The position numbers were made by a program, and so were the translations under genes. Below, one piece after another: positions 11,528 to 27,593 of a stretch of DNA of 64,000 nt (position 1 is its first letter; each line of letters opens with the position of its first letter). The notes under the pieces were generated by a model. The model was given only the letters and a program-made list of their open reading frames with translations, was not told the origin of the DNA and ran no database searches. The stretch lies in contig NZ_DS544873.1 in the NCBI RefSeq assembly GCF_000154725.1, positions 3,819,339 through 3,883,338 of the forward strand, given 5' to 3'. The DNA is from Kordia algicida OT-1. Its GTDB lineage: Bacteria > Bacteroidota > Bacteroidia > Flavobacteriales > Flavobacteriaceae.

Positions 11528-11592
11528 CAAATTTGCGCTTTAAACATGTGAAAAATAGGCGAGTTGTGCTGAAATGCGATTATGTTGCGACG
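11528..11592 (-). promoter_or_regulatory. candidate LytTR-type operator and -7 box (site D)
   Basis: Direct repeats GTTGTGCTG (11563-11571) and GTTGCGACG (11584-11592) are separated by 12 nt, AAATGCGATTAT. A -7-like box, CAAATTTG on the minus strand (11528-11535), lies 27 nt downstream toward the gene starting at 11503. The repeats are weaker than at the other sites, but AAATGC in the spacer is shared with site B. Confidence 0.45.
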
Positions 11593-12130
11593 AACGGAAA
11601 GAGTGTTTAGATTTCATTTCGACTCCGCTCAATGTGAAGTGTTTTTTTGATGGAATCAAGACTTTTAGAACCAAGATTCAGGACTTGTTCGAATAGTATT
11701 TTTGTGTATATAAGAATCTATTTCCGTTCAAAGTAGATCTCGATATAATTTTCTGTCGAAAATTACTTGATCTGACGGTTTTTGGAGAATAATAAATGAG
11801 ATAATATTAATTTTTAGTGGTGAAATAGCTATAAAGGAGAAAACCTATTTTTGATATTGAGTTAGATATTTGCATAATATAAATTAAAAATAAGATAATG
11901 TGTTTGAAGTTCTAGAAGAAAGAGAGAGGTTAAAATTTGGTGATTTAAAGGTAGGAGATAACTTTTTAATTATAGGTTCTAATATTGAGTATAAAGTATA
12001 CTACAAGAGTAAAATAAGCTTCTGCATTGACTAGAATGAAAAACTAAAAACCACATAAGAGTAAGCAAAATCTAAAAGCGAATCGGTCTAAAAAAAAGCG
12101 CTAACACTGAGCGGAGTCGAAGTGAAGCGA
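11593..12130. other. long non-coding gap with degenerate repeats
   Basis: This 538-nt stretch lies between the glycosyltransferase and flippase genes. It holds a TTTCGACTCCGCTCAATGTG repeat (11617-11640), fragments related to the 6485-6863 gap (ATCTGACGG near 11771), one small possible ORF (11900-12034), and at 12064-12130 the GCTTCGCT-type 3'-end repeat of the flippase gene. I see no RNA gene. Confidence 0.5.
11900..12034 (+). CDS. possible 44-residue ORF or gene remnant
   Basis: A GTG start gives VFEVLEERERLKFGDL, then KVGDNFLIIGSNIEYKV, ending CID. The run KVGDNF..IGS..YKV resembles short beta-rich fragments seen in flavobacterial proteins, and the codon use looks coding. There is no clear start signal: the overlapping ATG at 11898 is in another frame that stops at once. 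It may be a real micro-protein or the tail of a decayed gene. I do not recognise a family. Confidence 0.25.
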   Translation: MFEVLEERERLKFGDLKVGDNFLIIGSNIEYKVYYKSKISFCID

Positions 12131-12133
12131 TCA
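12064..12133 (-). repeat. 3'-end-associated repeat after flippase gene
   Basis: Transcribed order after the TGA: TCGCTTCACTTCGACTCCGC, AGCGCTTTTTTTTAGACCG, ATTCGCTTTTAGATTTTGC. Mixed with a relative of the TTTCGACT family. Confidence 0.5.
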
Positions 12134-13369
12134 AACTTTATTCTGAAAGAAGAAAAATCCCAACTGTACCATCAACAATAAAACCATCGCAAAGATTTGC
12201 ACATGTACAACTTGTGCTAAACTTTCATGGAAGAAAATAATCAATACAATTTGAAGCATTCCGCAGCAGCCAGAAAGTACTACAGGAACATATTTGTCTA
12301 AGGATAAATAGTAATATGCGAAGATGTTTGAAATGGCAAAAATTCCTGTCGCCAACGCATATTTCCACAATAATGGTGTGATTTCTAAATAGCTTTCGCC
12401 GAATAAAATCTGGATGATTTGCTCAGGAAATATGGCACAACCAAAAATGATTGTAGTAGCGATGCCGCCAATATACAACACATATCTTAGCAAAACAGGA
12501 ACTGTATCTTTTCCTTCTTTTTGGAGCTTTACAACGGTTGGTAATAACAACATGACAAACATCCAAGCAACGAAATATACGACACGACCAATCAACGCTA
12601 AAGAAGCATACAAACCTGCATCATATGATTCAAAATAATGCTTTACGAGTAAAATATCACTGTTGTTTATGATAATCTGAGTTAGTTCGTAAAAAGCGGT
12701 GATGATGAAAAAGTTACGCACCAATTTGCGTTGTGTTTTGTTGAGAACGTTCACACTTTTTAATGAAATGTTTTTTACATCAAAAGGAATCAATCCGCAG
12801 AAAAAAGAAGCTAAAATTCCTAATGAAATAATCAGCGTTGTATCAATTTGTAGAATATATAATAATGCCAAAGTAATGAGCAATCGACTCAACATTTCTG
12901 TCTGATACGTTACCGAAAGCGACACCAATTTTTGTGTTCCTTGAAAAATGCCTCGATTGACACTCATCATAAAATAAAATGGAATTCCGATACCAAAAAT
13001 AACAAACATCGTAGAAGATGAAGTTTTAAAAAAGGCTTGCAATGCTTCTGAAAAAAATATAATCAAACCACCAAAAATAATTCCTGTGAAGACTGATTTT
13101 TTATACATATTTGTTGCAAATCCTTTAAAAATAGACGCATCAAATATGACAGAGAATTTTGCTGTTACCAACTGAAATGTCATTGCTACAAACGATAAAA
13201 CCAATAAAAAAGTAACCAAAACTGCTGCATCTGCAAATTTTTCAGGCCCTAAAAAACGTCCTAAAAGTAAGTTGTATACATAATTTCCGCCGTTGACTAA
13301 CAAGCTACTCAGCATAAAAATATGTGCTGTAGTCAGGTTACTTTTTATTTTTTTTGTGATTGCGATCAT
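12131..13369 (-). CDS. polysaccharide flippase (Wzx/MATE-like)
   Basis: 412 residues from the ATG at 13369 (MIAITKKIKSNL). A longer frame opens at 13432, but its extra 21 residues come from an intergenic repeat, so the later start is preferred. There are about 12 hydrophobic segments, with the usual GNYVYNLLLGRFLGPEKF near the first helix pair and FYFMMSVNRGIFQGTQK in the middle. It belongs to the oligosaccharide flippase group of the MOP superfamily and should move lipid-linked sugar units across the inner membrane. The STAS gene just upstream and the glycosyltransferase gene downstream point to an exopolysaccharide unit. Confidence 0.82.
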   Translation of the reverse strand: MIAITKKIKSNLTTAHIFMLSSLLVNGGNYVYNLLLGRFLGPEKFADAAVLVTFLLVLSFVAMTFQLVTAKFSVIFDASIFKGFATNMYKKSVFTGIIFGGLIIFFSEALQAFFKTSSSTMFVIFGIGIPFYFMMSVNRGIFQGTQKLVSLSVTYQTEMLSRLLITLALLYILQIDTTLIISLGILASFFCGLIPFDVKNISLKSVNVLNKTQRKLVRNFFIITAFYELTQIIINNSDILLVKHYFESYDAGLYASLALIGRVVYFVAWMFVMLLLPTVVKLQKEGKDTVPVLLRYVLYIGGIATTIIFGCAIFPEQIIQILFGESYLEITPLLWKYALATGIFAISNIFAYYYLSLDKYVPVVLSGCCGMLQIVLIIFFHESLAQVVHVQIFAMVLLLMVQLGFFFFQNKV

Positions 13370-13439
13370 ACTATTGTTTAATTTTAAAAAGGTAATTAGA
13401 AGGTATCTCAATTCTAACATCTCACTACTCAATACTACT

Positions 13440-13718
13440 TTATGCTACTTGCGAGCAATTGAAATCTTGATAAATATCTTTGCAACCATTTCCGATGACA
13501 GAAAACATTTTATGTTGTCTGAGTGCAATTGCCGTTAAGGTTTTAATTCCTTCCAAACCATCATGATCGATTTGAGTGACACCATCAATATTTAAAACTA
13601 CATTTTGATGTTGTTCAATGATGTATTCGAAGTGGATGATAAACGATCTTGTTGTTGAAGAATTTAACTTTCCATTCATTAAAAAAGTTCCGTTTTGTTC
13701 TGTGATTTGTAAAGCCAT
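13440..13718 (-). CDS. STAS-domain protein
   Basis: 92 residues, one STAS fold: strand ITEQNGTFLMNGKL, then VVLNIDGVTQIDHDGLEGIKTL, then FSVIGNGC. The usual phosphorylatable Ser in the DxSG loop is replaced here by IDHDG, so regulation by an anti-sigma-type kinase is doubtful. In polysaccharide units, stand-alone STAS proteins can tune a transporter or synthase. It lies directly upstream of the flippase gene on the same strand and is probably the first gene of that unit. An operator-like repeat (13783-13812) precedes it. Confidence 0.7.
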   Translation of the reverse strand: MALQITEQNGTFLMNGKLNSSTTRSFIIHFEYIIEQHQNVVLNIDGVTQIDHDGLEGIKTLTAIALRQHKMFSVIGNGCKDIYQDFNCSQVA

Positions 13719-13748
13719 TTTCTTGGGTTTTTGCGATTAATATTGACA

Positions 13749-13812
13749 CAAATATCTCTGAAATACTGTGAAAATAGTCGTGTTGTCGGTGAGATTCAAT
13801 TTACTTACGATG
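13749..13812 (-). promoter_or_regulatory. candidate LytTR-type operator and -7 box (site C)
   Basis: Repeats TTGTCGGTG (13783-13791) and CTTACGATG (13804-13812) are separated by 12 nt. A -7-like box, GATATTTG on the minus strand (13749-13756), lies 26 nt from the first repeat. The gene start is at 13718. The first repeat and the bases after it (TTGTCGGTGAGAT) closely match site A (TTGTCGGCGCGAT). It also lies upstream of the divergent gene at 13861 and could serve both. Confidence 0.55.
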
Positions 13813-13860
13813 AATGATCGGTAGCTTATGCTTACCTTACAATTGTCTAAAATCAAGATC

Positions 13861-15945
13861 ATGAACACAAAATATATCTTACTTTTTTCGTTCCTATTTA
13901 TAAGTACTTTTGGCTTCGCTCAAAACATGAAAGAAGGCTTTTCATATTTGGAAAATGGAAAGTATCAACAAGCAGAAACATTCTTCAAAACCGTTTTGCA
14001 AGAATATCCAACGAATAAAACAGCGCGCTTGTGTTACGGTCGTGCGGTTGGACTCAATGGCAATGCTGCGGAAGCGAAAAAAATATTCAACAACTTACTA
14101 AAGGACTTTCCGAATGATTTTGAAGTGAAGTTGAATTACGGCGAATCCTTATTATGGAATCAAGAGTTCGATCTCGCGAAAGCGTACTACCAAAAATTAG
14201 TTGTGGAAGACGCTAAAAGTTTTCCAGCATTATTAGGTTTTGCAAATACGTTGTCGAACTTAAAAGAATACGACAGTGCATTACTATATGTAAACAAAGC
14301 GTTGGAAGTTTTGCCAGGAAATCTGAACGCAATGACGTCAAAGAAGTACATCTATTTAGGAAATGCTTACCAAAAACAGCAAGCACAACAGTATTTGGAA
14401 GCTGAAAAAATATTGAAAGAATGTGTGTCGCTTTTCGCGAATGATACAAACGCGTTGTTGAATTTGGCGAATTTGTATTTGATTATGGACGAATTGGACA
14501 AGGCAAAAATAACGTATGACACCTTGCTTGAAAGCTCAAAAAATGTATCGGATAAAATAACGGTTTTAAATGGTTGGGCATTGATTGAACATTTGAAAGG
14601 AAAAGAAAAATTGGCGCTAAAAACGAGTCAATTGGCGTATGATAGTTTGGCAGAAAATGTAGAAGCAACTGTAATTCAGCAAACGAGAGAACGTTATATT
14701 CAGGCGTTGATTTGGAACAAAAAGTATGCAAAGGCAGCAAAGTTGATTGATGAAATCATTAAAGAACAACCTAATGAAAACTGGGTTTTGGCTTTGCGTG
14801 CAACACTAAATGTGTACAAAAGTAACTTTAAACAGAGTTTGGCAGATTACGATCAAATTTTAGTCAACGATTCTACTTCGTTTGATGGAAATTTAGGAAA
14901 AGCTAATGTTTTAAAAGCGTTAGGTCGTTATGATGATGCCATCGCTGCTGCAGAAAAGACACTGACATTTTACAACAATCAGAAAGATGCGACCAACTTT
15001 ATTAAAGAATTGAAAATGAAGTTTACGCCTTTTTATGATGGAAAAGTCTCGTATACATTTGACAATGGCGATAACGAAGCCTTTTCGGTGCAAAATACGA
15101 TTGAATTTCCGTTTTCGACACGTTTGAAACTACTCGGAAATTACACCTACCGAACGACAAATAATACGGTGACGAACAACAAAGCAACGTCGCATGCGGC
15201 TTCGGCAGGTTTGTCGTATCAAGTATTTCCAAACATGACGTTTAAAGGAACGTTGGGAATCACATCAGCCAACGCAGAAACCAACGATTTTACACAATTA
15301 TTAGCAGATTTCTCTTTAAATATCAAACCATTTAAACTACAAACCCTTGATATTGGTTACAAGCGCGAAATACAGAGTTTTAATGCTGATTTACTAGATC
15401 GTGAAATTGTACAAAACAATTTATATGCAAATTATAATGTAAGCACGAATTTTAATCTTGGTTGGTTTACGCAGTACTATTATACGATGCAAAATGATAA
15501 CAATTCGAGACATTTAGTATTTACGTCGTTATACTATAATATTTTGAGCAAACCTTCTTTAAAAGTTGGATTAAACTATCAGTACATTACCTTTGAAAAA
15601 CAAGTGCCGAGTATATATTTCAGTCCGAAAAAATTCAACGCAGGCGAAATCTTCTTAAACTTGATCAAAGATGAAAACATCACCAAAGCTGACGAATGGT
15701 TTTACGAACTTACAGCTGCGACAGGTTTGCAATATATTGAAGATCAGGAACGCCAAAGTACCTATCGTTTTCAGGGGAAATTAGGTTATAAATTCTCTGA
15801 TCGTTGCATGGCAAATGTCTTTGGCACACGTAGTAATATTGCTTCAGCAACTGCGGCTGGATTTACGTTTACGGAAGTTGGGATTAGGGTTAAGTGGGTT
15901 TTTGGGGAAGCTAAAACTCAATTAAATCAAGTTCTTCAATTCTAA
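13861..15945 (+). CDS. TPR plus outer-membrane beta-barrel protein (YaiO/polysaccharide-export type)
   Basis: 694 residues from ATG 13861, where a signal peptide begins (MNTKYILLFSFLF...GFAQ). A longer frame opens at 13828 but adds polar residues before the signal. Residues about 20-370 are TPR-like repeats (YLENGKYQQAETFFKTVLQ, YDSALLYVNKALEVLPG, YDDAIAAAEKTL). From about 380 on, alternating beta-strands form a barrel (VSYTFDNGD, LKLLGNYTYR, LNYQYITF, VGIRVKWVF). The layout is that of PgaA/BcsC/YaiO-type exporters that guide polymer across the outer membrane. A barrel normally ends with an aromatic residue such as in RVKWVF; here 13 extra residues follow, encoded on the overlap with the next convergent gene. 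Confidence 0.75.
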   Translation: MNTKYILLFSFLFISTFGFAQNMKEGFSYLENGKYQQAETFFKTVLQEYPTNKTARLCYGRAVGLNGNAAEAKKIFNNLLKDFPNDFEVKLNYGESLLWNQEFDLAKAYYQKLVVEDAKSFPALLGFANTLSNLKEYDSALLYVNKALEVLPGNLNAMTSKKYIYLGNAYQKQQAQQYLEAEKILKECVSLFANDTNALLNLANLYLIMDELDKAKITYDTLLESSKNVSDKITVLNGWALIEHLKGKEKLALKTSQLAYDSLAENVEATVIQQTRERYIQALIWNKKYAKAAKLIDEIIKEQPNENWVLALRATLNVYKSNFKQSLADYDQILVNDSTSFDGNLGKANVLKALGRYDDAIAAAEKTLTFYNNQKDATNFIKELKMKFTPFYDGKVSYTFDNGDNEAFSVQNTIEFPFSTRLKLLGNYTYRTTNNTVTNNKATSHAASAGLSYQVFPNMTFKGTLGITSANAETNDFTQLLADFSLNIKPFKLQTLDIGYKREIQSFNADLLDREIVQNNLYANYNVSTNFNLGWFTQYYYTMQNDNNSRHLVFTSLYYNILSKPSLKVGLNYQYITFEKQVPSIYFSPKKFNAGEIFLNLIKDENITKADEWFYELTAATGLQYIEDQERQSTYRFQGKLGYKFSDRCMANVFGTRSNIASATAAGFTFTEVGIRVKWVFGEAKTQLNQVLQF

Positions 15946-17308
15946 TAGCCATAGCTTCTACTGAAACATTGAATAATTTAGAAATAGAAATAAAAGATTG
16001 ATTGCTGTAAAATTCAGCATTAGCTAACTTCCTGGCCAATCCTCTAGAGTTTTTACACTCTTTTCTTAATTCACTAGGGTTTCCTCCAGTTAAGAAAAAA
16101 GCTGAGTCTTCATTGATTTGAAATTTATCAGTCAAAAACAGTTCTTTAAAAGTTTGTTTAACAAGTTTTTCTGGCATTAAGAAGAAGGTTGCAAATTTAT
16201 CAGCTTGTCTTTCTTTATAATCCCTATTTTTATAAGAAGTGAATCCATCAATCGGTTTATCTCTATGCATTACTTTTTGTGTATGTAAAATAGCATGACC
16301 TAATTCATGAGCAGCAGTGAAGTTTTGCGTATTTTTTGGAAACTCATCAGAAATCATGACAATCTTTTCCTCTTGGTTAATAATTCCTGCAATATTATTT
16401 TCACTTCCTATTTCGGCAACATCATGAAATTCATAACCAAATATTTTTTTCAAAACTGTACCAGGGATTAGTACTTTTGTAGGCTGTTGAGGCACTTTAA
16501 CTTTCCAAATTTTATAACGATTTTTCCAAATTAGCCTTTGAAGTTCAACAGAGCTTTCTTCTATGTCTTTATCAGAAAGATTTTTTTTAGATTTGTATTT
16601 TTTAAGAAATTGGTCTACTTCTTTATAAAGTATTTTTTTATCATTAACTTCCTTCTCTAATATACTTATTTTTGAATCAGTTATATTACTAAAATTCCTA
16701 TATTTATTTTTTAAACTTTCTACTTTAAGCATCGTATCTTCAATCCATTCGTACTCATCACTTCTGAAAGATAGTAAGTTAAGTTGAATGATTGATAGGC
16801 AACCTGCAATTGCAGAAACCGAGCCACTCAAAGCCACTTGAGAATCTCCCCTAGCAGATCTAAAAGCGTGATCAAAAACAAAATTAGCAATTTCAGTTAA
16901 TTCAACACATAATCTAGATATTTCTATAGGAATATCAATAGCTACTTTTAATTCTTTTAATGCTAGTCTAGATAATTTATTATGTTTAATTGGATCTTTT
17001 TCTAGATCACGTTGTTCCCTTAACTTTATGGTTTTATCAAATTGTATAGAATCTTCTTGAAATAATTTAGTTAGCTCAGGAAAAATACGATTTTGAATAT
17101 CTGATTCCATCTCTAATAATTTTGGAAGATTTTTGGAGTATCTTTTTCTCCGTTTTTTCTCATTCGTTAGATTAATTACTGTTACTAGAAGTTTAGCAGA
17201 AATCATACCTTGAAATGCAGCGTCACTTCCTGATCCTGGTTTGTGATTTCCAGCACCAAATTTTTCCAAAAGCTCTTCCGTTGTAATATCAAGTAACTTT
17301 ATTCCCAT
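15911..17308 (-). CDS. cyclodeaminase-like domain fused to ImmA/IrrE metallopeptidase
   Basis: 465 residues. Residues about 8-200 match the FTCD_C/FchA cyclodeaminase-cyclohydrolase fold: ELLEKFGAGNHKPGSGSDAAF, where PGSGS stands for the family's PGGGS loop, followed by long helices. Residues about 200-265 are coiled-coil-like. The C-terminal part is an ImmA/IrrE (M78) peptidase with AAHELGHAILH (His334, Glu335, His338) and the third ligand in KERQADKFATFFLMP (Glu366). ImmA/IrrE enzymes cleave HTH repressors or act in toxin and stress systems. The first domain may sense or alter a folate-like ligand. The gene is AT-richer than its neighbours, lacks an HTH partner, and overlaps the barrel gene by 35 nt, which suggests acquisition. 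Function unknown. Confidence 0.75.
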   Translation of the reverse strand: MGIKLLDITTEELLEKFGAGNHKPGSGSDAAFQGMISAKLLVTVINLTNEKKRRKRYSKNLPKLLEMESDIQNRIFPELTKLFQEDSIQFDKTIKLREQRDLEKDPIKHNKLSRLALKELKVAIDIPIEISRLCVELTEIANFVFDHAFRSARGDSQVALSGSVSAIAGCLSIIQLNLLSFRSDEYEWIEDTMLKVESLKNKYRNFSNITDSKISILEKEVNDKKILYKEVDQFLKKYKSKKNLSDKDIEESSVELQRLIWKNRYKIWKVKVPQQPTKVLIPGTVLKKIFGYEFHDVAEIGSENNIAGIINQEEKIVMISDEFPKNTQNFTAAHELGHAILHTQKVMHRDKPIDGFTSYKNRDYKERQADKFATFFLMPEKLVKQTFKELFLTDKFQINEDSAFFLTGGNPSELRKECKNSRGLARKLANAEFYSNQSFISISKLFNVSVEAMAIRIEELDLIEF

Positions 17309-17524: not shown

Positions 17525-19978
17525 TTATTTCACAACCAGTTTTAGGGTTTTGTAGGTTTGGGATTTGCTTTCTATTTTACAGAAATACAATCCAGGACGC
17601 AAGTTATTTAGGTTTAGGGGGATTTTGTTCTGACCATGTTCAGTTTTAACCTTTTGTATATAAACTACTTTACCTACTTGGTCATAAACAGCTAACTGTG
17701 CGTCCTCAGATTGCTTTGCAGTAAATAAGATTTTTGTATTTGTTGTCACTGGATTGGGAATCGCCATGAGCTTATTTGTTTCAATTTCTGCTTCAAATTG
17801 TGCAACATTTAATGTATTTTCCATTCCAAATTGTGCATTATGTACTTCAATATTGAATGGAACATAACTGTGATAATCTCCTTGTATAGAAAATAGAATG
17901 GTTTTTACGTCTGAAATGATTGCTGAGTTTCCACTTCCATCTACAAATTCGTCAAATGAAATGCTATATGCTGTTTCTGTTGTGTTTGCAGGAATGATTT
18001 TACGGAAACGGTTGTTCCAATCTGTCAAACCTTCTTGTAATAAAATAACTTCTACAGGTTGAGAATTTGTGATGCTAAATTGAAACACTTCATACTCACT
18101 TACATCTAAGGTTTGATCGCCAGGTAATACATGCCTAAACAAGTTGATTGTACCTTTTACTTCTCCAAAAACACTCGGTTGTCGTTCAATTTCATGTGTG
18201 TTTTCCAAATCATTTACAACCGTATTTTCTATGTCAAAATTAGTGACGATCACGTTTTCTTCTTCATAATCAATTCCCCAAGGACCATCAGCCAAATAAA
18301 GTGCGTCTTGTTGTGCTGACACAGTTGTGCTTAGCGACAAACCAACATCAAACAATTGTCCTGTTGCTATCGTCACATTATCTGTCCAAAAACCTGTTAA
18401 AGCTATATTTTGCGACATCATTGTACGTTCAGAGACTTCCGTGGCTGCCATACTTGCTTCAAAAAACACAGAATTCACGCTTACTTTGTTAATAATATTT
18501 AAGTGAATATTTCCATTTGCATAATATCCAGAACTTACAAATACAGGCGGTACAACATCATCTACAATTTGACTGTTTAATGGTTTTTCTAGCGTAAGCG
18601 TATCAATAATATGATTTCCTATTGTAAATACTTGTGATAAGGAACTTCCCCAAATTTGAAAGTTATAATAATCGCCTGTTGGATATTGCGCAATGTTCCA
18701 AAAACTATACAATTCGTTGGCAGTTTCACCTAGTTTCACAGAAAAACTCAATGTATATTCTATTTCACCAGAAGCTCTTTTTATTTTTGAACTGATTAAT
18801 TGATGACCTCGAACCATTACCGTACGCACATCTTCAAGTGAAGAACTATTTAGTCGATCGCAAATAACTTTAGAGTGGTCATATATTGAACCTTCTGTAG
18901 CTGTTGCTAATACAGCAGAAACACGCGTGTTTTCTTGATACATATCAAGCGCAAAAATCTCTGAAGCATTTGTGATATCTACTAAATCTGTCGGACTTGA
19001 CAAGTATGCCGTTTCTGTACCGTACATTCCTGTATCTGGTAAATACATATCTAAACTTGTTCCGTCTTCTGGATTTAACGAAGCATATGTTTGCTTGTTA
19101 TAAAAAGTTTGTAGTTGTTTTTTATTTTGAGCATTTCCTGTTTGTGTTCTTCGAAGGTTACGTTTAGCAATCAAACTGGCTAAATTTCCATTACTTTCCA
19201 ATCCGCCATCATTGGCAGAAGTTACATCTGTAGCACTTTCTACATCTGCATAATTGGTAGTTTTTAGTGCTGTATACGGATTCGCCGTTACATAAAAGAT
19301 TGCATCATTAAAATCATTATCACACGAACCATAATCACGTCGAATGTCTTCAAAACCTAAAATAATACGTTCGTTCTCAGGATCATTTAATAATACATTA
19401 TGATACCGTAGATTTTCATCTGCTTCAGGATTATAGTCCGTATTTGAATATAACTTCCACAAACCATGTCCAACTGTACTTGTGTTTGAATTCCAAGCAT
19501 TTGCCAATAAAACCCAGCCAACGCCTGTGCCAGCTTCAAAAGTTCCTATTTTAACTTTGTCACCAACTTGCAATCCGCCGCCACTTCCTAGTGCAGAAGC
19601 GTTTGGAAAAATAATAGTAATATCTTCTGGCTGTGGTGCTGTTGGTGAAGGATTGTTTAGATCGTATGTGTAAAAACCTAAAACATTTCTGTAGCCAGCT
19701 CCTTCAGCGACAAATGTGACCCAAACATCAGCTGTTTCATTAATGATAAGATCTGTATCGTATCCTGAAGAAATATAATGCGGATTGTAATCAGGTACTG
19801 GATATGATTCTGGTAGCGAATTGCTTATCATTTCTAATGTTTCAACAGAGACGTTGTCTCCTGGCGATTCTAAATAGAGAGGCGTTCCATTGGAAGTATA
19901 ACTCCCTAAATATTGATAGTTCTGTGCATTAACCAAAACGGCTGTAAGTATGCTGAATAATAGTAGTAGTTTCTTCAT
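17525..19978 (-). CDS. secreted DUF4114 protein with T9SS type A sorting domain
   Basis: 817 residues. Signal peptide MKKLLLLFSILTAVLVNAQ. A DUF4114-like module around 165-235 has the acidic signature LGFEDIRRDYGSCDNDFND, a likely calcium site. A long beta-rich middle follows, and the last 80 residues are a Por/T9SS sorting domain (AIPNPVTTNTKILF, AVYDQVGKVVY, LRPGLYFCKI). It should be exported by Sec, then carried by T9SS to the cell surface or released. The role may be adhesion or matrix binding. The promoter is well formed: TAGATTTG at 19999-20006 on the minus strand, with operator-like repeats upstream (site A). Confidence 0.85.
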   Translation of the reverse strand: MKKLLLLFSILTAVLVNAQNYQYLGSYTSNGTPLYLESPGDNVSVETLEMISNSLPESYPVPDYNPHYISSGYDTDLIINETADVWVTFVAEGAGYRNVLGFYTYDLNNPSPTAPQPEDITIIFPNASALGSGGGLQVGDKVKIGTFEAGTGVGWVLLANAWNSNTSTVGHGLWKLYSNTDYNPEADENLRYHNVLLNDPENERIILGFEDIRRDYGSCDNDFNDAIFYVTANPYTALKTTNYADVESATDVTSANDGGLESNGNLASLIAKRNLRRTQTGNAQNKKQLQTFYNKQTYASLNPEDGTSLDMYLPDTGMYGTETAYLSSPTDLVDITNASEIFALDMYQENTRVSAVLATATEGSIYDHSKVICDRLNSSSLEDVRTVMVRGHQLISSKIKRASGEIEYTLSFSVKLGETANELYSFWNIAQYPTGDYYNFQIWGSSLSQVFTIGNHIIDTLTLEKPLNSQIVDDVVPPVFVSSGYYANGNIHLNIINKVSVNSVFFEASMAATEVSERTMMSQNIALTGFWTDNVTIATGQLFDVGLSLSTTVSAQQDALYLADGPWGIDYEEENVIVTNFDIENTVVNDLENTHEIERQPSVFGEVKGTINLFRHVLPGDQTLDVSEYEVFQFSITNSQPVEVILLQEGLTDWNNRFRKIIPANTTETAYSISFDEFVDGSGNSAIISDVKTILFSIQGDYHSYVPFNIEVHNAQFGMENTLNVAQFEAEIETNKLMAIPNPVTTNTKILFTAKQSEDAQLAVYDQVGKVVYIQKVKTEHGQNKIPLNLNNLRPGLYFCKIESKSQTYKTLKLVVK

Positions 19979-19998
19979 GATCTTTGTTATTTATGACA

Positions 19999-20083
19999 CA
20001 AATCTAACGACTGAAAAAACGGAAAAGTTCACTTGTCGGCGCGATCATTGTAAGTGTAGACGAAATGCAATTTTCTGTTGATT
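19999..20083 (-). promoter_or_regulatory. candidate LytTR-type operator with perfect -7 box (site A)
   Basis: TAGATTTG (minus strand, 19999-20006) matches TAnnTTTG. With 26 nt between, direct repeats follow: TTGTCGGCG (20033-20041), 12 nt, GTGTAGACG (20054-20062), 12 nt, then a weaker third copy CTGTTGATT (20075-20083). The 19-bp block 20052-20070 recurs exactly at 27512-27530 in front of the receiver/H-NOX operon. Confidence 0.65.
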
Positions 20084-20153
20084 AATCATTTTAACGAAAC
20101 CGCATCCAGCTAAAAAGTAAGATGTTAATTTTGAAACTTTATATTTGTTACGG

Positions 20154-21217: not shown

Positions 21218-21220
21218 TCA
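21168..21220 (-). repeat. 3'-end-associated repeat after LytTR gene
   Basis: Transcribed order after TGA: TTTAGACTTGCTACGC, TTTTAGACCGCTGACGCTG, then ATTCGCTTCGCTCATTAC. The outer part merges with dispersed repeat copy a. Confidence 0.55.
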
Positions 21221-21925
21221 CAGTAAATCCAAACGCTTCATCAATTCTGGTCGCTTGGAACGACTTACGGGAATCACATCTTTCTTAATAAGCACGCTAT
21301 TGTCTTCAATATCAATGATTTTCTTCAAATTGATAATATACGAACGGTGAATTTTCAGGAATAATGAATCTGGTAGTTTTTCTTCAATTTTCTTTAAAGT
21401 TGAATGAACTGTGTAGTTTTTATCTTCCGTTTTAATATGAATATAATCGCCTTTCGCTTCCACCAAATAAATGCTTGGAATGTCAATTTTAATCAAACGA
21501 CGATCAATGTTGATGTAAAAATCGTTTTCCAATTTTGTTTCTACTTTCGCTTCTTCCGTTTTGGTTGCTAAAAGTTGGTGTTTTTTTGCTTTTTCAACTG
21601 CCATTTTAAAACGATCAGCATCTATAGGTTTTAGTAAATAATCTACAATACATTCGTACTGAAATGCTTCAATTGCAAATTTTGGATCGGAAGTCGTCAA
21701 TACAATGCTTGGCGGATTTTTCAATGTTTTTACAAAGTCAAACCCAGTAAAATCAGGCATATGAATGTCTAAAAAGATCAAATCGACTTCGTTTTCGTTC
21801 AAATATTTAATGGCTTGCATTGCATTTGGAAATTCTTCTACAACATGCAAAGAATCAATCTCATCACACAATGTTTTTATGATTGTTCTTGCTAGTTTTT
21901 CATCATCAATAATAATACAATTCAT
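21218..21925 (-). CDS. LytTR-family response regulator
   Basis: 235 residues. The receiver domain (1-120) has MNCIIIDDEK, the phospho-Asp in IFLDIHMPDF (Asp53), a Thr in LTTSDP and Lys in YLLKPI. The LytTR DNA-binding domain (about 135-235) has IPSIYLVEAKGDYIHIKT and FLKIHRSYIINLKKI. It is the last gene of a seven-gene operon, 4 nt after the Hpt gene, so it is the natural end of the phosphorelay. LytTR proteins bind pairs of 9-bp direct repeats 21 bp apart; such repeats occur at four promoters in this window, including that of this operon. It may also act on distant genes. Confidence 0.92.
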   Translation of the reverse strand: MNCIIIDDEKLARTIIKTLCDEIDSLHVVEEFPNAMQAIKYLNENEVDLIFLDIHMPDFTGFDFVKTLKNPPSIVLTTSDPKFAIEAFQYECIVDYLLKPIDADRFKMAVEKAKKHQLLATKTEEAKVETKLENDFYINIDRRLIKIDIPSIYLVEAKGDYIHIKTEDKNYTVHSTLKKIEEKLPDSLFLKIHRSYIINLKKIIDIEDNSVLIKKDVIPVSRSKRPELMKRLDLL

Positions 21926-21929
21926 ACCT

Positions 21930-22247
21930 TTAAATAGTTTTTATATACGCCGTGATTGTGTTTAAAATTTGTTCAAAATCTTCTTCACCTTTCCTACTTT
22001 TTTCACGTAAATTATGCTCAAAAGCATTTGCGAGTTCATAACTTTTTTCAAGCCCTAAAATACTAATTTTGTGCTTTAGTTTGTGTACATTTTCTTCTAT
22101 TTTTTTGTAATCTTTGGCAGCTAAACTTTCATAATACTCCTTTTTTTCTTCAGGAAATTCAGATTTTATAACGTCAATAAGTGTTTTTTTTATGTTTTCG
22201 TCGCCACGAGCTAATTGGTCTACGTAGGTTAAATTTGGTTGCTCCAT
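21930..22247 (-). CDS. Hpt-domain phosphotransfer protein
   Basis: 105 residues, all helical. The phosphorylatable His is in NVHKLKHKISILGL (His55), followed by the family's small-residue helix ELANAFEHNLRE. Stand-alone Hpt proteins pass phosphate from a kinase or receiver to a response regulator in the cytosol. It lies between the second kinase gene (3-nt gap) and the LytTR gene (4-nt gap), which fits a relay kinase to Hpt to LytTR. The kinases here lack fused receivers, so the separate receiver at 27018 may sit between them. Confidence 0.85.
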   Translation of the reverse strand: MEQPNLTYVDQLARGDENIKKTLIDVIKSEFPEEKKEYYESLAAKDYKKIEENVHKLKHKISILGLEKSYELANAFEHNLREKSRKGEEDFEQILNTITAYIKTI

Positions 22248-22250
22248 ACT

Positions 22251-23312
22251 TTATTTTTTTAGGGTAAAATAAAAGGTTGTTCCTAAATTTGGTGTCGATT
22301 GTATCCAAATGTCACCTTTATAAAGTTCGATAATTTTTTTGACAATTGAAAGCCCAATTCCTGTTGACTTGTAATCATTTTGCAACTTTTGAAAAGCCAC
22401 AAATATTTTATCGAAGTATTTTGCTTCAATTCCTTTGCCGTTATCTTTTACGTAAAACTCATAAAAATCACCTTTGTCCGTGTAGCCAATGATAATTTCT
22501 CCTTTGGGTTTGTCATTAAATTTGATGGCATTTCGGAGTAAATTTCGAAATAATTCTTCCAAACGGAAATGATCGCCGGTAACTTTAGGTAATTTTTCTG
22601 GAATCGTAACGGTAACATGTTCAGGAATTTCCATTAAGCTCAATACTTTTTGAAGGACTTCATCTGTAGCTACTATGTAGAAATCTTTTTCAGCACGACC
22701 AATAGACGAATATTTTAGAATTCCTTTGACCAAGGTATCCATTTTTTCGACATTGCTACGAATAAGTTTGATGGTTTCTTTACCATTTTCACCCAATAAT
22801 TCTTCATAATCATCTTTTAGCCAAGTCGTCAGTGCATCAATGCTTTGTAGTGGCGATTTTAAGTCGTGCGATACCAAATGTGTATAATCATTAAGCTCTT
22901 GATTCTGACGTTCTAAACTTGTCAACAATTTATCACGTTGTTTATTTATGGCTAAAATTTCTTTGGTTTGATTGTCGATTAAATCTACCAAACGCAGCGA
23001 ATCTAAATCTAAGTTTTCTTGATTTTCGCCATCGTTTAAGTTGTATGAATTGAGCGTATCAATAACATTTTTTAGCTTTTTGATGATTTCTTTTTGCGAG
23101 TCCGATTCTTTACGAAGTTGCTCATTAGCTTCAAAAAGTTCTTCCGAACTGATTTTTGTAGCGCGTTGTAACATGGCAAATTGTTCGTTAGAATTGTCAT
23201 ACGAACGATTTACCGCATCTAGAAAACGCTCCATTTCAGGATGATTTTGCAATTCAGGAGAGAGATATTTTCGTAATTGTCTTTTTAAAAGAGGATTCAT
23301 CTTTTTATTCAC
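22251..23312 (-). CDS. sensor histidine kinase (soluble, coiled-coil N-terminus)
   Basis: 353 residues without membrane segments. The N-terminal 135 residues are largely coiled-coil (EELFEANEQLRKESDSQKE). HisKA has the phospho-His in THLVSHDLKSP (about 148). The ATPase part has NLLRNAIKFND, VKDNGKGIE and STGIGLSIVKK. No PAS or other sensor domain is seen, so it probably takes its signal from the FIST protein, whose gene overlaps by 8 nt. This matches the pairing of FIST/NosP proteins with a kinase in other bacteria (established knowledge; here inferred from context). Confidence 0.9.
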   Translation of the reverse strand: MNKKMNPLLKRQLRKYLSPELQNHPEMERFLDAVNRSYDNSNEQFAMLQRATKISSEELFEANEQLRKESDSQKEIIKKLKNVIDTLNSYNLNDGENQENLDLDSLRLVDLIDNQTKEILAINKQRDKLLTSLERQNQELNDYTHLVSHDLKSPLQSIDALTTWLKDDYEELLGENGKETIKLIRSNVEKMDTLVKGILKYSSIGRAEKDFYIVATDEVLQKVLSLMEIPEHVTVTIPEKLPKVTGDHFRLEELFRNLLRNAIKFNDKPKGEIIIGYTDKGDFYEFYVKDNGKGIEAKYFDKIFVAFQKLQNDYKSTGIGLSIVKKIIELYKGDIWIQSTPNLGTTFYFTLKK

Positions 23313-24444
23313 TTATCAGTGTAATTGTCATTGTTTGGTTGTGTAATTGACAGTTTTTTTCGCCGCCAAAAGGAGCAATTTCTCCATAGGAATACAATCC
23401 GCAAATTGTAGTTGTGTTTCCAACAACTTCAAGTACTTCTTCAATTTCTTCTTCTACACGTTGATCTAGTACCAATTTTCGTCCTATACAACTTACTAAA
23501 ATTGCTAATTCGGCTTCAGTTTCTCGTAATTCTAGTGCTTGCGTTGCTGCTTGTTCGGAAGCATCTACAATAGTGTCAACATTTGTCATCATCAATTGCA
23601 CACGTGAATTTTCAAGAATATCTCCAGCCAAAATCATGGAATTTTTTTCTTCGTCAATATTTAAAATTGTTCGTACAATAGATTGTTTTTCGTTGGTCGA
23701 TTTTACTTTTAGCGGATATAACAACGCTGCCGCAGGCAATTCTTTTGATTTTTCGCCCAAATACTTTTTGTATAAATCTAGCGCAGGCTGATTGTCCAAT
23801 TCGTACAATACATTTGCATCTGATTTTGTCACAATACGTTCTGGTCCAAAAGGTGTCCAACCACCGTTAATAGCAAAGCTGATATCAAGCGTTTCTCCAT
23901 ACAAACCAATGGCAACAATTTCACCCGATTTTGGCAGTTCGTTATACGAAGCAACTGTTTTTTCAAAGCGAGCTGCATCGCCACATAATGCGCCCGTAAT
24001 CAATACGTTTTCTTCCGTTGCCGAGTTCATTCCTAATGTTAATTGACTTCCGTTGATAAAACTTCCTTCAGACACAATAAATATGTGTTTTAATCCTTTA
24101 GGATCAAACTGTTCAATGAGGTTTTTTCCTGTTGTATAACTGTTAATCTCAGCATCATTTTCTAGTACATTTGCTGTTTTAATTACAAACGTACTTTTTT
24201 CAAATTCGACAGCAGTAATTGTAACACTTTCATCATCGACATATTGCGATGTAATATCGCCAGAAGTAGAACCAAATACAAATTCGCCATCAGGGAAAAT
24301 AGCTTTTACTTCTTCAAGGATGGTTTCACTTTCTAGCATATATCTATTTCCAAAAACCAAAACTAACGGTTTTTGAAGCGTGTTATTTTCGCCCAAGTAA
24401 GTCCAATCAGAATTTATTGTTTTTTTGAGTTGTACGGTTTTCAT
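23305..24444 (-). CDS. FIST-domain sensor protein (NosP-like candidate)
   Basis: 379 residues with a FIST_N domain (LVLVFGNRYML, FGSTSGDITSQ, VITGALCGDAARF) and FIST_C domain (LYPLKVKS, ILVSCIGRKLVLDQRVEEEIEEV, ICGLYSYGEIAPFGG). FIST proteins are intracellular sensory modules; one branch, NosP, binds heme and nitric oxide and controls a partner kinase encoded beside it. Whether this one binds heme cannot be told by eye. The gene directly abuts the PAS kinase gene (0 nt) and overlaps the second kinase by 8 nt, and an H-NOX gene is in the same operon. It may instead sense amino acids or other small ligands. Confidence 0.88.
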   Translation of the reverse strand: MKTVQLKKTINSDWTYLGENNTLQKPLVLVFGNRYMLESETILEEVKAIFPDGEFVFGSTSGDITSQYVDDESVTITAVEFEKSTFVIKTANVLENDAEINSYTTGKNLIEQFDPKGLKHIFIVSEGSFINGSQLTLGMNSATEENVLITGALCGDAARFEKTVASYNELPKSGEIVAIGLYGETLDISFAINGGWTPFGPERIVTKSDANVLYELDNQPALDLYKKYLGEKSKELPAAALLYPLKVKSTNEKQSIVRTILNIDEEKNSMILAGDILENSRVQLMMTNVDTIVDASEQAATQALELRETEAELAILVSCIGRKLVLDQRVEEEIEEVLEVVGNTTTICGLYSYGEIAPFGGEKNCQLHNQTMTITLISE

Positions 24445-26427
24445 TTACTGCTTTTTTATGGTAAAAAAGAAGGTCGTTCCTTCTCCAAGTTCGCTTTCGA
24501 GCCAAATATTTCCTTCGTATAAATCGACAATTTTTTTCACAATAGACAAACCAATTCCGGTTGATTCTTTGCTTTTGTTTAAGGAATGAAAGATTTTGAA
24601 AATTCGGTCGTGAAATTTTTTATCAATACCGATTCCATTATCTCGTACAGAAAATTGATAGAAAGAAGGTTCTTCCACAACATCAATTTCTACAATTCCG
24701 TTGTCTTTGTCACAAAATTTAATGGCGTTACTCATTAAATTTTGAAAGAGTTGTTGAAACTTGGTAGGATCGCCTTTTACAACAGGCAGTTTTTTTAATA
24801 TGTTAATTGAAATATGCTCAGGAACAAATAATAAACGATGCAAATCTTCCATTGTTGTATTGAGATCTACTTCTTTTGAAGCTGCTGTTTCCGAACCTGC
24901 GCTTGAGTATTCTAAAATGTTAGAAATTAAGTTTTCCATAATTTCTAAAGTATCTTCAATAAGTTTTAAATTTTGCAATGTAGGATCGTCAAACTTGCCT
25001 TCATTGTCCATTTTTATCCAAGAAACTAGCGCGTTGATACTGCGTAAGGGCGATTTTAAATCGTGTGAAACAATATGAGCATATTCGTATAATTCGTTGT
25101 TGCTCTTTTCGAGCTTTTCTAAGATTTTTTCTTTCTGTTTTTCAAGATTTTTAAGTTCGGTAATGTCTAAATGAATTCCGATAGAACCGATCACTTCTCC
25201 ATCTAAATTATAGTTTGGAGCACCACTTATCAACCAATTTTTGGGTGTTCCTTGTTTGTCTTTAACGTTAATTTCGTATGAGTTGGATGTACCGTTGAGA
25301 CGTTTTTTATTTTCTCGCTCAATGATATTTTCATCTTCTGCAATAGGAAATAACTTTCCACCAATTTGCCCAATCAATTCATCTTCATCATATCCAGACA
25401 TTTCGCAAAAACTCTGATTTACCATCAAAATTTTATCGTCGTTATCAACTTCTACCAAACCAAGATTCATGTTGGCAATAATGCTGCTGTATTTTTCTTT
25501 TTGCGCTTCTAAACTTTTGCTGTATTTTCTATTGAGCGAAATATCTCGGTATGTCCACAAATGACCTTTGTAGGTGCCTCCTTTTAAAATAGGAATAAAA
25601 TCTAGTTCTAAAATAGTACCGTCAGCCATTGTCAATTCTGTACCAATTACTTGCTTTTTTTCGTGTAAAATGCGATTGATCGTATTAATAAAAAGTTTTG
25701 GGTCTTTAAATAATATTTTGCTTTCTTCTGCGGCGTTAGAACAATCTTGCCCTTTTAGTAATTCGGGAGAAACGGGAATTTTAAAAATCTCACAAAACTT
25801 TGCGTTTGTCAACACAATATTGCGGTTTTCATCTTCCAATAAAACGGCGCTGTCTAAGTTGAGAATTAAGGTTGAAAGCCTGTTTTCAGATTCAATCAAT
25901 TTATCATCAAACTTTTTCTGATCGGTGATGTCACGAATAATTCCTTGTGCAGCAATAGGTTTTTCGTTGGCATCAAAAATTAAACTTGCATTAATTTGAA
26001 CCCAACGAACACCTTTGTTTTTTGTGTAAACACGTGCTGTATAGTTTGAAAAGCGTCCTTTTTCAATCAATTCACTAAACGATTCAAACGCATATGCTAC
26101 ATCTTCTTTGTATATTAAACTTGTTACATTTAGTGTTTCTTCTAAAATATTATAACCAAAAAGCTCGCAAGCAGCATCGTTCATTTTAAGCACATTTCCG
26201 CCTAAATCCATCACCAAGTACGCATCTATAATATTCTCAAAAACACCTGCTAATTGTGATGTTTTTTCACTAACAGATGCTTCAAGTTTAGAGTTGGTTA
26301 CCTTTAATTCTTCCGACAATATGTATAATTCTCTCGATTTGTCTTCTAGAATTTTCTCGGCGGCTCGTCTTGCTTCTTTTTCACGCTTTAATGCGCGTTG
26401 TAATATGTCAATTTGTTCCTGACTCAT
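24445..26427 (-). CDS. PAS-domain sensor histidine kinase
   Basis: 660 residues, no membrane segment. The N-terminal coiled coil (ALKREKEARRAAEKILEDK) resembles that of cytosolic kinases linked to H-NOX or FIST partners. Three PAS domains follow, with PAC-like ends (AAQGIIRDITD, GHLWTYRDIS, GSIGIHLDITE). HisKA has HIVSHDLKSPLRS (about 455), and the ATPase part has NLMSNAIKFCD, VRDNGIGID and STGIGLSIVKK. The start codon overlaps the H-NOX stop (TAATG), and its stop abuts the FIST gene, so expression of sensor and kinase is coupled. No fused receiver domain is present. Confidence 0.92.
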   Translation of the reverse strand: MSQEQIDILQRALKREKEARRAAEKILEDKSRELYILSEELKVTNSKLEASVSEKTSQLAGVFENIIDAYLVMDLGGNVLKMNDAACELFGYNILEETLNVTSLIYKEDVAYAFESFSELIEKGRFSNYTARVYTKNKGVRWVQINASLIFDANEKPIAAQGIIRDITDQKKFDDKLIESENRLSTLILNLDSAVLLEDENRNIVLTNAKFCEIFKIPVSPELLKGQDCSNAAEESKILFKDPKLFINTINRILHEKKQVIGTELTMADGTILELDFIPILKGGTYKGHLWTYRDISLNRKYSKSLEAQKEKYSSIIANMNLGLVEVDNDDKILMVNQSFCEMSGYDEDELIGQIGGKLFPIAEDENIIERENKKRLNGTSNSYEINVKDKQGTPKNWLISGAPNYNLDGEVIGSIGIHLDITELKNLEKQKEKILEKLEKSNNELYEYAHIVSHDLKSPLRSINALVSWIKMDNEGKFDDPTLQNLKLIEDTLEIMENLISNILEYSSAGSETAASKEVDLNTTMEDLHRLLFVPEHISINILKKLPVVKGDPTKFQQLFQNLMSNAIKFCDKDNGIVEIDVVEEPSFYQFSVRDNGIGIDKKFHDRIFKIFHSLNKSKESTGIGLSIVKKIVDLYEGNIWLESELGEGTTFFFTIKKQ

Positions 26428-26966
26428 TAATTTTTGTTAATGATAAATTTTACTTCCGTTCCGTCTTCTTTTATTTTTTCTAGAATGATTTCTGCTGAAC
26501 TATTGAAGTGTTCAAAGGTTTTATTCATCAATCCTAAACCAAAATGATGCATGGCACGGCTCGATTTGTATATCATGGTAAGTGAATTTGCTGTTTTTTC
26601 TTCAACGACAAACGTTGGCAACTCGGCATCAGGATATATTTTTCGAACTTCTACATGAATGTGATTTTCAATAGAAGCGAGCATTTCAATAGGATCTTTG
26701 TAAGTTGCGAGCAATCCGGGATAGCTATCTTCAATAACACTGAAAAAATGTTCGGCGTAGGTGAGAAGTAAGTCGTCAATAGAAACGTCTGTATTTGCAC
26801 TCAAATTTTGCAATAGTTGAAGCATCTCTGAAAAGCGATAGGTTCCAATAGATGTGTACACACCTTCAGATTCTAATTCAGATTGTGTAATGATTTTATC
26901 TACCATTTCCAATCCAAATTTGTCTTCGACTAAATCTAAAAATTCTGTAAATATAATTCCTTTCAT
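26427..26966 (-). CDS. H-NOX (heme NO-binding) protein
   Basis: 179 residues from the ATG at 26966 (MKGIIFTEFL), the usual H-NOX start; a TTG at 26972 would add two residues. The proximal heme ligand is His102 in IENHIHVEV, and the propionate-binding YxSxR motif is YKSSR (Tyr133, Ser135, Arg137); Pro117 is near the expected heme-bending site. All key residues are present, so it should bind heme and sense NO (or O2) in the cytosol. The start of the PAS kinase overlaps its stop by one base, the usual H-NOX/kinase arrangement. It is the second gene of the operon, 51 nt after the receiver gene. Confidence 0.9.
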   Translation of the reverse strand: MKGIIFTEFLDLVEDKFGLEMVDKIITQSELESEGVYTSIGTYRFSEMLQLLQNLSANTDVSIDDLLLTYAEHFFSVIEDSYPGLLATYKDPIEMLASIENHIHVEVRKIYPDAELPTFVVEEKTANSLTMIYKSSRAMHHFGLGLMNKTFEHFNSSAEIILEKIKEDGTEVKFIINKN

Positions 26967-27017
26967 AAGCAAAGTAAGGTTAAGTTTTTCTTTTTGTGTT
27001 TGGGATGCAAAAAAAGG

Positions 27018-27431
27018 TTAAGCACTTTTTAATTCGTTAATAGACCAATACGAGAGCGCAATTTCTATCTTAGAAACGTAATCTTCGTATTTTAAAGGTT
27101 TTAAAATGTAGCCAGAAATTCCAATGCGATAACATTCCAAAATATCTTTCCGATTGTCGGAAGTTGTTAAAATGATGGTAGGAATATGTCGCAAATCGGC
27201 ATCTTTTTTTAAGATAGACAAAAACTCAATACCATTTATTTTTGGCATATTTAAGTCTAATAAGATGATATCGGGTAAGTTTTCTTTCGTTTCTAATATC
27301 GCCAACGCTTCTTCTGCATTCTTCGCTTCTGTAATTTCATGTTTGGCTTCTAACAAAGAAACAGTACGATTCATCTTCATGATTTCGATCATGTTGTCTT
27401 CGATTAGTAATACTTTTAATGAATTTTTCAT
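27018..27431 (-). CDS. single-domain response regulator (CheY-like)
   Basis: 137 residues, one receiver domain of the Rcp1-like type: LIEDNMIEIMKM (acidic pair), phospho-Asp in ILLDLNMPKINGIEF (Asp59), LTTSDN and the Lys in YILKPL. No output domain. As first gene of the operon it likely shuttles phosphate between the kinases and the Hpt protein, or acts as a phosphate sink or by protein contact. Its promoter carries the clearest direct repeat of the window (site B), so the operon may be under control of its own LytTR regulator. Confidence 0.9.
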   Translation of the reverse strand: MKNSLKVLLIEDNMIEIMKMNRTVSLLEAKHEITEAKNAEEALAILETKENLPDIILLDLNMPKINGIEFLSILKKDADLRHIPTIILTTSDNRKDILECYRIGISGYILKPLKYEDYVSKIEIALSYWSINELKSA

Positions 27432-27479
27432 TTTTTCTTATGTAAGCAATTATACATACAATTTTACATCATAAAAAAC

Positions 27480-27543
27480 CAATAAAAGTTGAATACAGTT
27501 TAACGAAGAAGAAGTGTAGACGAAATGCAAAAAAGTGTAGATG
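27480..27543 (-). promoter_or_regulatory. candidate LytTR-type operator (site B)
   Basis: Nearly perfect direct repeats GTGTAGACG (27514-27522) and GTGTAGATG (27535-27543), 12-nt spacer, 21-bp period. A weak -7-like box on the minus strand (TTTTATTG, 27480-27487) lies 26 nt from the repeats, the same distance as at sites A and C. The operon starts at 27431. Confidence 0.65.
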
Positions 27544-27593
27544 AAGTTTTTTCCGAAAGGTTGTTTTTAGGAAAATCATCAAGTAAAGTCAAC

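Follow-up and report, generated by a model that had tools for sequence, protein, structure and literature searches.

LytTR-type regulators bind direct repeats upstream of their target promoters. The operators of RcoM, a haem-containing CO sensor with a LytTR domain, and of CoxC, an MHYT CO sensor with a LytTR domain, consist of three direct repeats with 12-13 bp between them, and CoxC acts as a repressor on repeats that overlap the -35 box (PMC11347149). Both are one-component proteins with the repeat unit TTCNNGCA (CoxC TTNNNGCN). The two-repeat operators of PlnC/PlnD comprise 9-bp repeats with a 12-bp spacer directly upstream of the promoter (PMC2714321), an arrangement that appears to hold for AgrA as well, in Firmicutes promoters responding to a peptide signal. 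In Proteobacteria, NosP (a FIST protein, NosP-NosK-NosR pathway) and H-NOX proteins are encoded with or act on histidine kinases and response regulators that control biofilm formation (PMC12570481), and in Vibrio fischeri the NO-responsive HnoX controls the kinase HahK, which acts on the syp polysaccharide locus through the response regulators SypG and SypE (PMC12369376), which are probably not of the LytTR type. In the papers that our searches returned, the described outputs of such NO pathways run through c-di-GMP, quorum sensing or, in V. fischeri, the two regulators of the polysaccharide locus, all of them in Proteobacteria.

The window analysed here, a stretch of 64,000 nucleotides of Kordia algicida OT-1 (NZ_DS544873.1, positions 3,819,339 to 3,883,338), contains an operon on the minus strand in which both types of putative NO sensor are combined with a LytTR response regulator. 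The operon starts with a stand-alone receiver (REC, 27018..27431; PF00072), followed by an H-NOX protein (26427..26972; PF07700, E 5e-39), a PAS histidine kinase (24445..26427), a FIST protein resembling NosP (23305..24444; PF08495 and PF10442), a second histidine kinase (22251..23312), an Hpt phosphotransfer protein (21930..22247; PF01627) and the REC-LytTR response regulator (21218..21925; PF00072 and PF04397). The presumed phospho-acceptor residues are conserved among the aligned homologues, with D59 of REC in 79 of 79, H55 of Hpt in 78 of 78 and D53 of the LytTR receiver in 79 of 79, while the histidine residues of the kinases were read by eye only. A candidate proximal histidine and the YxSxR motif presumably typical of H-NOX were detected in 80 of 80 homologues. 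The operon reads as a split His-Asp-His-Asp relay fed by H-NOX and the FIST/NosP protein, although the order of phosphotransfer and the response to NO are inferred.

The earlier note had described four pairs of 9-bp repeats in this region as a candidate LytTR regulon, and the presence of these repeats was confirmed. The repeats at 11563/11584, 13783/13804, 20033/20054/20075 and 27514/27535 are present, spaced 21 bp apart and all located on the minus strand together with their downstream genes. The 19-bp block identical at two sites is AAGTGTAGACGAAATGCAA at sites 3 and 4. However, each array was found to contain three units rather than two, the last unit lying 37-38 nt upstream of a -7 box, and the -7 box which the note had assigned to site 4 is one unit too close.

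Site 4, the operon promoter, comprises unit 1 at 27535..27545 (TTCATCTACAC), unit 2 at 27514..27524 (TTCGTCTACAC) and a degenerate unit 3 at 27493..27503 (TTAAACTGTAT), whose -7 box TAAAATTG at 27459..27466 follows 37 nt after the start of unit 3. In six other Kordia loci the box position proposed in the note scores a mean of 3.0 of 6 consensus positions against 5.0 for the new position, and in the window itself 4 against 5. Site 3 (20033..20085, with units at 20075-20085, 20054-20064 and 20033-20043) is followed by the -7 box TAGATTTG at 19999..20006, which by eye matches 6 of 6 consensus positions, and precedes a gene encoding a T9SS-secreted DUF4114 protein (17525..19978; PF13448 and PF18962). 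Site 2 (13783..13835, with units at 13825-13835, 13804-13814 and 13783-13793; -7 box GATATTTG at 13749..13756) precedes a gene for a STAS-like protein (13440..13718), which is probably co-transcribed with the adjacent polysaccharide flippase gene (12131..13432; PF13440 and PF01943), as inferred from their adjacency. The STAS assignment is weak in this genome (E 0.0028, below the cut-off) and gave no hit in one homologous locus (L231), but is clear in another (L247, 5e-9). Site 1 (11563..11615, with units at 11605-11615, 11584-11594 and 11563-11573) lies 38 nt from the -7 box CAAATTTG at 11528..11535 and precedes a glycosyltransferase gene (10295..11503; PF13692 and PF00534). All features are on the minus strand.

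To assess whether these arrays could have arisen by chance, a 39-column matrix was trained on 69 promoters of genera other than Kordia and applied to the window. Of 127,924 positions it placed the four sites first, with scores of 30.2 for site 4, 18.4 for site 3 in its upstream frame, 11.5 for site 3, 8.8 for site 1, 8.3 for site 4 shifted by one unit and 3.1 for site 2, the next position scoring -5.5. In contrast, a strict consensus search of the whole genome (5.03 Mb) hardly exceeded its control. Its only hit without mismatch was site 4 and site 3 was one of two hits with 2 mismatches, but with up to 3 mismatches there were 15 hits against 11 for the reversed control, sites 1 and 2 not being among them, so that this pattern is not suitable for a regulon search.

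The training promoters derive from 80 of 216 loci, which were found through H-NOX. Among 79 REC promoters of relatives within the Flavobacteriaceae, 72 have a repeat pair at 21 bp, which is also the commonest spacing (95 pairs, the next being 23 at 42 bp); 75 of the 79 upstream regions entered the training set, four being dropped because of more than 5 mismatches, and 69 are not from Kordia. The third unit is conserved in register in the relatives (columns 48-56, C 84% at column 53). Over the 69 promoters the match to the Bacteroidota sigma-A -7 consensus TAnnTTTG (PMC9723704) peaks at 37 nt from unit 3 with a mean of 4.26 of 6 positions, compared with 2.94 at the next offset and a maximum of 2.39 after shuffling.

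Apart from the REC promoters, the matrix gave hits above 10 in the 80 loci at 70 positions outside and 4 inside ORFs of 150 aa or more, 73 of 74 on the operon strand, against means of 0.07 and 0.5 for 30 column-shuffled matrices. These hits lie before DUF4114-T9SS, STAS/flippase and other genes, although the gene labels rely on tblastn overlap and many of the T9SS genes are only 30-40% identical to that of the window. A scan with displaced half-matrices also gave 21 bp as the highest spacing (89 hits outside ORFs), but the other 25 spacings retained 3 to 41 hits, with 17, 22 and 42 bp the highest among them; one good half together with AT-rich sequence can pass and 42 bp corresponds to two periods. 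Within Kordia, conservation footprints were obtained for all four sites, and the array was located upstream of REC in 9 of 9 other genomes in which this region was read, while the tenth (G300) lacks the operon in the stretch read.

The occurrence of the motif was furthermore compared with that of the genes of the operon by means of a profile (R1) built from 74 of 158 sites. In a set of 299 genomes 75 of 82 motif genomes carry the LytTR gene (Fisher p 2.9e-34), and in 345 genomes of the phylum 17 of 17 motif genomes have LytTR whereas 0 of 321 genomes without it has the motif. These samples overlap in part, and the cut-offs also admit paralogues. Three of the training sites derive from Kordia loci and some of the scanned genomes probably represent the same species as training loci, so that the scans are not fully independent. 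The association with H-NOX is nearly as strong (71 of 82, p 1.2e-30), and the assignment to LytTR therefore rests on the genomes in which the two are apart. Of 77 best hits with known place (5 of the 82 had none listed) 58 lie within 12 kb of both genes, 7 of LytTR only, 4 of H-NOX only and 8 of neither. The presence of the motif beside LytTR in genomes where H-NOX is absent or located elsewhere disfavours H-NOX as the gene which the motif tracks.

Seven of the 82 motif genomes have no LytTR at the cut-off. Among the six examined, one (G180) is a cut-off miss, one (G049) has the array, REC and an H-NOX with a stop but no LytTR in the stretch, and four (G003, G025, G040 and G071) show no such operon at the hit read, G071 having a second hit 4 kb from its H-NOX. 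Conversely, R1 found nothing in 36 LytTR genomes of the family, of which 20 were inspected. Nineteen have REC, and all 19 have a same-strand site 36-90 nt before it (scores 9.8-51.2), while the twentieth (G123) has no stand-alone REC or H-NOX in the stretch and only a weak site (5.1) before STAS. Nineteen other LytTR loci of the Kordia genome under study score -1.6 or lower against 18.4. A partial Mantel test of co-divergence over 77 loci gave a raw r of 0.51 between the site and the LytTR DNA-binding domain, 0.72 with the LytTR receiver, 0.61 with REC and 0.38 with H-NOX, but a partial r of -0.02 (p 0.58) once other operon proteins were controlled for, and thus neither supports nor refutes LytTR as the binder.

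Taken together, the matrix ranking, conservation, promoter geometry and phyletic association support the proposal of the earlier note that the LytTR protein encoded at 21218-21925 controls its own operon, the glycosyltransferase, the STAS/flippase pair and the T9SS protein, and we consider it likely that the four sites are its operators. Each operator would consist of three direct repeats (consensus about TTCRTCKACAC, the outer ones degenerate) with a 21-bp period, so that the units face one side of the helix, and the last unit begins 37-38 nt upstream of the -7 box, next to a promoter with no evident -33 element; that is the usual place of an activator. In this scenario H-NOX and the FIST/NosP haem protein would act on two soluble histidine kinases, phosphate would be passed from kinase to stand-alone REC, Hpt and the LytTR receiver, and phosphorylated LytTR would bind the arrays and activate its targets. 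Direct binding, activation and an output in matrix or surface polysaccharide are inferred. Sites 1 and 2 are weak matches that rest on conservation and geometry.

Compared with RcoM and CoxC the array shares the three evenly spaced units, but the presumed binder is a response regulator at the end of a relay, with a different repeat unit, a Bacteroidota -7 geometry and surface and polysaccharide targets. The PlnC/PlnD and probably the AgrA operators share the 21-bp period with two units only. With respect to the NosP and H-NOX pathways, both sensors are encoded here in one operon and the last step is a LytTR DNA-binding regulator, which would provide the Flavobacteriaceae with a concrete DNA-level output for H-NOX and NosP. 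As the operator is defined to the base with fixed geometry, a regulon can be read from sequence in about a hundred genomes, NO control of surface polysaccharide becomes directly testable, and a promoter-distance rule (unit 3 at 37 nt from -7) is added for this phylum.

It seems unlikely, though it is not excluded, that the arrays are bound by another regulator and that the LytTR of the operon is merely a neighbour or one of several users. The genome has 27 LytTR matches, among them a paralogue of 68% identity (G000:C1:2923198, G000 being the genome under study), and all 11 Kordia genomes carry a LytTR of 65-68% identity. G300's copy has a weak site upstream of its REC (10.1), and weak profile hits (E 0.02-0.41) lie about 4 kb upstream of the paralogue, on its strand, in 6 of 11 Kordia genomes (G000, G299, G300, G302, G305 and G307). 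Moreover, one genome (G179) keeps the operon array although only a 61-residue match to LytTR and no match to Hpt remain. On the other hand, motif presence follows the operon LytTR across both genome sets, even if this is not a clean separation from paralogues, and the paralogue region of the genome under study has no good matrix match (best -1.9).

Repression by LytTR, relieved by the signal, as may be suggested by analogy to CoxC, seems similarly improbable. Since the -7 box occupies -12 to -5 in Flavobacterium (PMC9723704), the last unit would span about -49 to -39, upstream of the -33 position, and our reading of the alignments revealed no evident -33 element. That the sites are chance repeats or a general promoter feature of this AT-rich genome is very unlikely despite the result of the strict consensus search, since shuffled and reversed matrices gave almost no hits above 10, the matrix from other genera recovered the same four sites and the sites are conserved between species.

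A fifth likely target, a fusion of REC and glycosyltransferase 2 (locus L195), was identified outside the window and is conserved in other species. As a tentative hypothesis, the REC, histidine kinase, Hpt and REC-LytTR genes may form an old Bacteroidota core cassette with its own triple-repeat operator and a portable surface/polysaccharide regulon, into which H-NOX and NosP were plugged as exchangeable NO sensors. The fusion, which carries the same array, might then allow the relay to act on polysaccharide synthesis both by transcription and directly by phosphorylation of the enzyme.

In the profile scan of the own genome with R1, in which 150 of 5,976 first-look candidates were scored, 46 hits were obtained at E<=10, and only sites 4 and 3 reached E<0.01. 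Of the remaining 44 hits six were read, including L195 and a site before a secreted-protein gene (L173, G000:C1:5000595) that has a full -7 consensus at 37 nt but a matrix score of -0.3, and the other four were taken for chance by eye. In the scan of the genus 18 hits had E<1e-3, of which 17 are located in the operon cluster and one (G305:C1:113496) lies elsewhere.

All four repeat pairs described in the earlier note are present in the window, spaced 21 bp apart and all located on the minus strand like the genes behind them. The domain searches agreed with the gene labels, namely a receiver (REC), H-NOX, PAS kinase, FIST, a kinase, Hpt and REC-LytTR in one operon, followed by a DUF4114 protein with a T9SS tail, a flippase and a glycosyltransferase (GT). 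The STAS label is weak in the window (E 0.0028, below the cut-off) but clear in one homologue (locus L247). Since the genome (5.03 Mb) has 27 LytTR matches, naming the binder of the repeats requires more than proximity.

A search with the H-NOX protein provided 80 loci (the best 80 of 216) which, according to their titles, belong to the Flavobacteriaceae. In the loci inspected the order REC, H-NOX, kinase, in many also FIST and a second kinase, Hpt, LytTR is kept, often followed by a DUF4114-type T9SS protein, a TPR protein on the other strand, STAS, flippase and GT. LytTR was found in 79 of 80 loci. The DNA upstream of REC shows a direct repeat, CCATTCGTCGACACTTAA in its commonest form, which is repeated 21 bp further on. 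A pair at 21 bp within 4 mismatches was detected in 72 of 79 cases, and 21 bp is by far the commonest spacing (95 pairs; the next is 42 bp with 23). The conserved columns continue 21 bp further as about TTnAACGAA, a third, degenerate unit.

In order to test the sites of the window independently, a 39-column matrix derived from 69 REC promoters of other genera was run over both strands. The best hits were the operon promoter site (s4; 30.2), the site in front of the T9SS/DUF4114 gene (s3) in its upstream frame (18.4), s3 (11.5), the site in front of the glycosyltransferase (s1; 8.8), s4 shifted by one unit (8.3) and the site in front of the STAS/flippase pair (s2; 3.1), while the next of 127,924 positions scores -5.5. 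Thus, the four sites picked by eye in the earlier note are the best-scoring sites of 64 kb for a matrix that had not seen them.

The matrix was furthermore applied to the other loci. More than 600 bp away from REC starts it finds, above a score of 10, 70 sites outside and 4 inside ORFs of 150 aa or more, although only 18% of the DNA is outside, and 73 of these 74 sites are on the operon strand. Thirty column-shuffled matrices give means of 0.07 and 0.5. At threshold 0 the counts are 103 and 12 against shuffled means of 1.6 and 11.4, so that hits inside ORFs at that level are background. At threshold 3 there are 187 hits, located before REC (80), a T9SS protein (51), flippase or STAS (12), or an isolated FIST gene (1), or unlabelled (43); 5 of the 107 non-REC hits lie inside ORFs of more than 150 aa. 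By our reading of the sequences, the unlabelled include nucleotide-sugar dehydrogenases (loci L124, L154), a chain-length-type membrane protein (L111), CAP-domain lipoproteins (L148, L155) and a small protein of about 95 aa encoded before REC. In Tenacibaculum skagerrakense a FIST gene about 4 kb upstream of the REC-H-NOX operon carries its own array (L146:5176-6463). Tandem DUF4114 T9SS paralogues, each with its own array, were detected in loci L234, L235 and L239, and in L129 two identical sites (L129:10398 and L129:10991) lie 593 bp apart.

Measured from the start of unit 3, the TAnnTTTG box peaks at exactly 37 nt, with a mean of 4.26 of 6 over 69 REC promoters compared to 2.94 for the next offset and a maximum of 2.39 in 50 shuffles. 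In 42 T9SS sites the peaks are at 58 (3.67) and 37 (3.29) from the second matched unit, that is, in register by one period. In the window the distances are 38, 37, 37 and 37 nt. With the -7 box at -12 to -5 as in Flavobacterium (PMC9723704), unit 3 covers about -49 to -39. For s4 this places the box at 27459-27466, and not where the earlier note had put it. The sites s1, s2 and s3 are conserved as three-unit blocks in alignments of 7, 8 and 12 Kordia promoters, respectively (including those of the own genome; the 12 include tandem paralogues of one genome).

In 299 genomes of the family the motif (profile model R1, E<=1e-4) is present in 82 and a LytTR relative (E<=1e-75) in 111, with both occurring in 75 (Fisher p 2.9e-34). 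However, the overlap with H-NOX (105 genomes) is 71 (p 1.2e-30), so the two must be told apart by exceptions. The motif is found in 7 of 14 genomes with LytTR but no H-NOX, against 3 of 8 with H-NOX but no LytTR at the cut-off (one of these, genome G180, does have LytTR) and 4 of 180 with neither. In the genomes G005, G062, G115, G129 and G277, which are without H-NOX, the sites sit beside the LytTR gene, and in G172 they sit beside LytTR while H-NOX is on another contig. In 345 genomes of the phylum, a sample that shares some genomes with the first, the 17 motif genomes are all among the 24 with LytTR (E<=1e-65) and none of 321 others has the motif; one of them, G457, is of another family of the class. 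The family scan undercounts, since among 20 inspected of the 36 LytTR genomes that it called negative, all 19 with REC have a same-strand array 36-90 nt before it. Within the own genome, 19 other LytTR loci (of 26; about 1.5 kb each side) score -1.6 or lower against 18.4 for this one.

Not all results point to the LytTR protein of the operon. The divergence of site and DNA-binding domain is not coupled beyond what the other operon proteins share. In a Kordia relative with the H-NOX operon (L225, G179:C6:232000-251900) the array before REC is still present although only a 61-residue match to LytTR and no match to Hpt remain, which may be recent decay. Seven motif genomes lack LytTR at the cut-off; among the six examined, G180 has it below the cut-off, G049 shows the array, REC and an H-NOX with a stop but no LytTR in the stretch, and G003, G025, G040 and G071 show no such operon at the hit read. 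Moreover, in the own genome only s4 and s3 reach E<0.01 with R1. All 11 Kordia genomes have a second LytTR of 65-68% identity, and weak R1 hits (E 0.02 to 0.41) lie about 4 kb upstream of this paralogue in 6 of them, so the paralogue may use a related operator; in locus L224 a YjbR-type gene lies near that hit. In the four loci that we read (L224, L227, L229, L243) the paralogue sits in a REC, kinase, Hpt, LytTR operon without H-NOX or FIST. That, and the H-NOX-free operons, suggest that the core relay is older and the NO sensors were added, although this order is inferred.

The phospho-acceptors of REC, Hpt and LytTR are conserved in 79 of 79, 78 of 78 and 79 of 79 cases, respectively, and the candidate proximal His and YxSxR motif of H-NOX in 80 of 80. 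NO is presumed to enter through H-NOX and NosP acting on two kinases, with phosphate passing via REC and Hpt to LytTR, the phosphorylated form of which presumably activates. However, the sign of the NO effect cannot be told, as in NosP systems it varies by species (PMC12570481). None of the open-access papers surveyed, judged by titles and abstract starts, describes this regulon, and a term search of the Kordia genome paper revealed no occurrence of LytTR (PMC7477175). Triple LytTR operators are known for RcoM and CoxC (PMC11347149), so the triple array alone is not new.

A fifth likely target lies outside the window. In three other Kordia genomes (loci L232, L233, L236) an array core identical to that of the own genome, TTTTTAATTGGACTAAAGGAAATTGCATTTCGTCTAAAGATAG, is found. 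In L232 the gene behind it (L232:5993-7290) encodes a receiver fused to a family-2 glycosyltransferase. The own genome has the orthologue at G000:C1:3592583-3593743 (89% identity) with the same upstream block (L256/L195, G000:C1, about 3592410-3593743). A weak array with a full TAGCTTTG box at 37 nt was furthermore detected before a secreted-protein gene of the own genome (L173, G000:C1:5000595), which may represent a further target. In another Kordia genome a profile hit at E 2.9e-4 lies outside the operon cluster (G305:C1:113496-113535).

Between the TPR and T9SS genes of the window, positions 15911-17308 on the minus strand encode a protein joining a formiminotransferase-cyclodeaminase C-terminal domain and an M78 (ImmA/IrrE) peptidase domain. 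On the plus strand (36997-60822) the domain scan of ten proteins from 33179 on also revealed a polysaccharide-type cluster with two heparinase II/III-like proteins, sugar transferases, an epimerase-type enzyme and glycosyltransferases.
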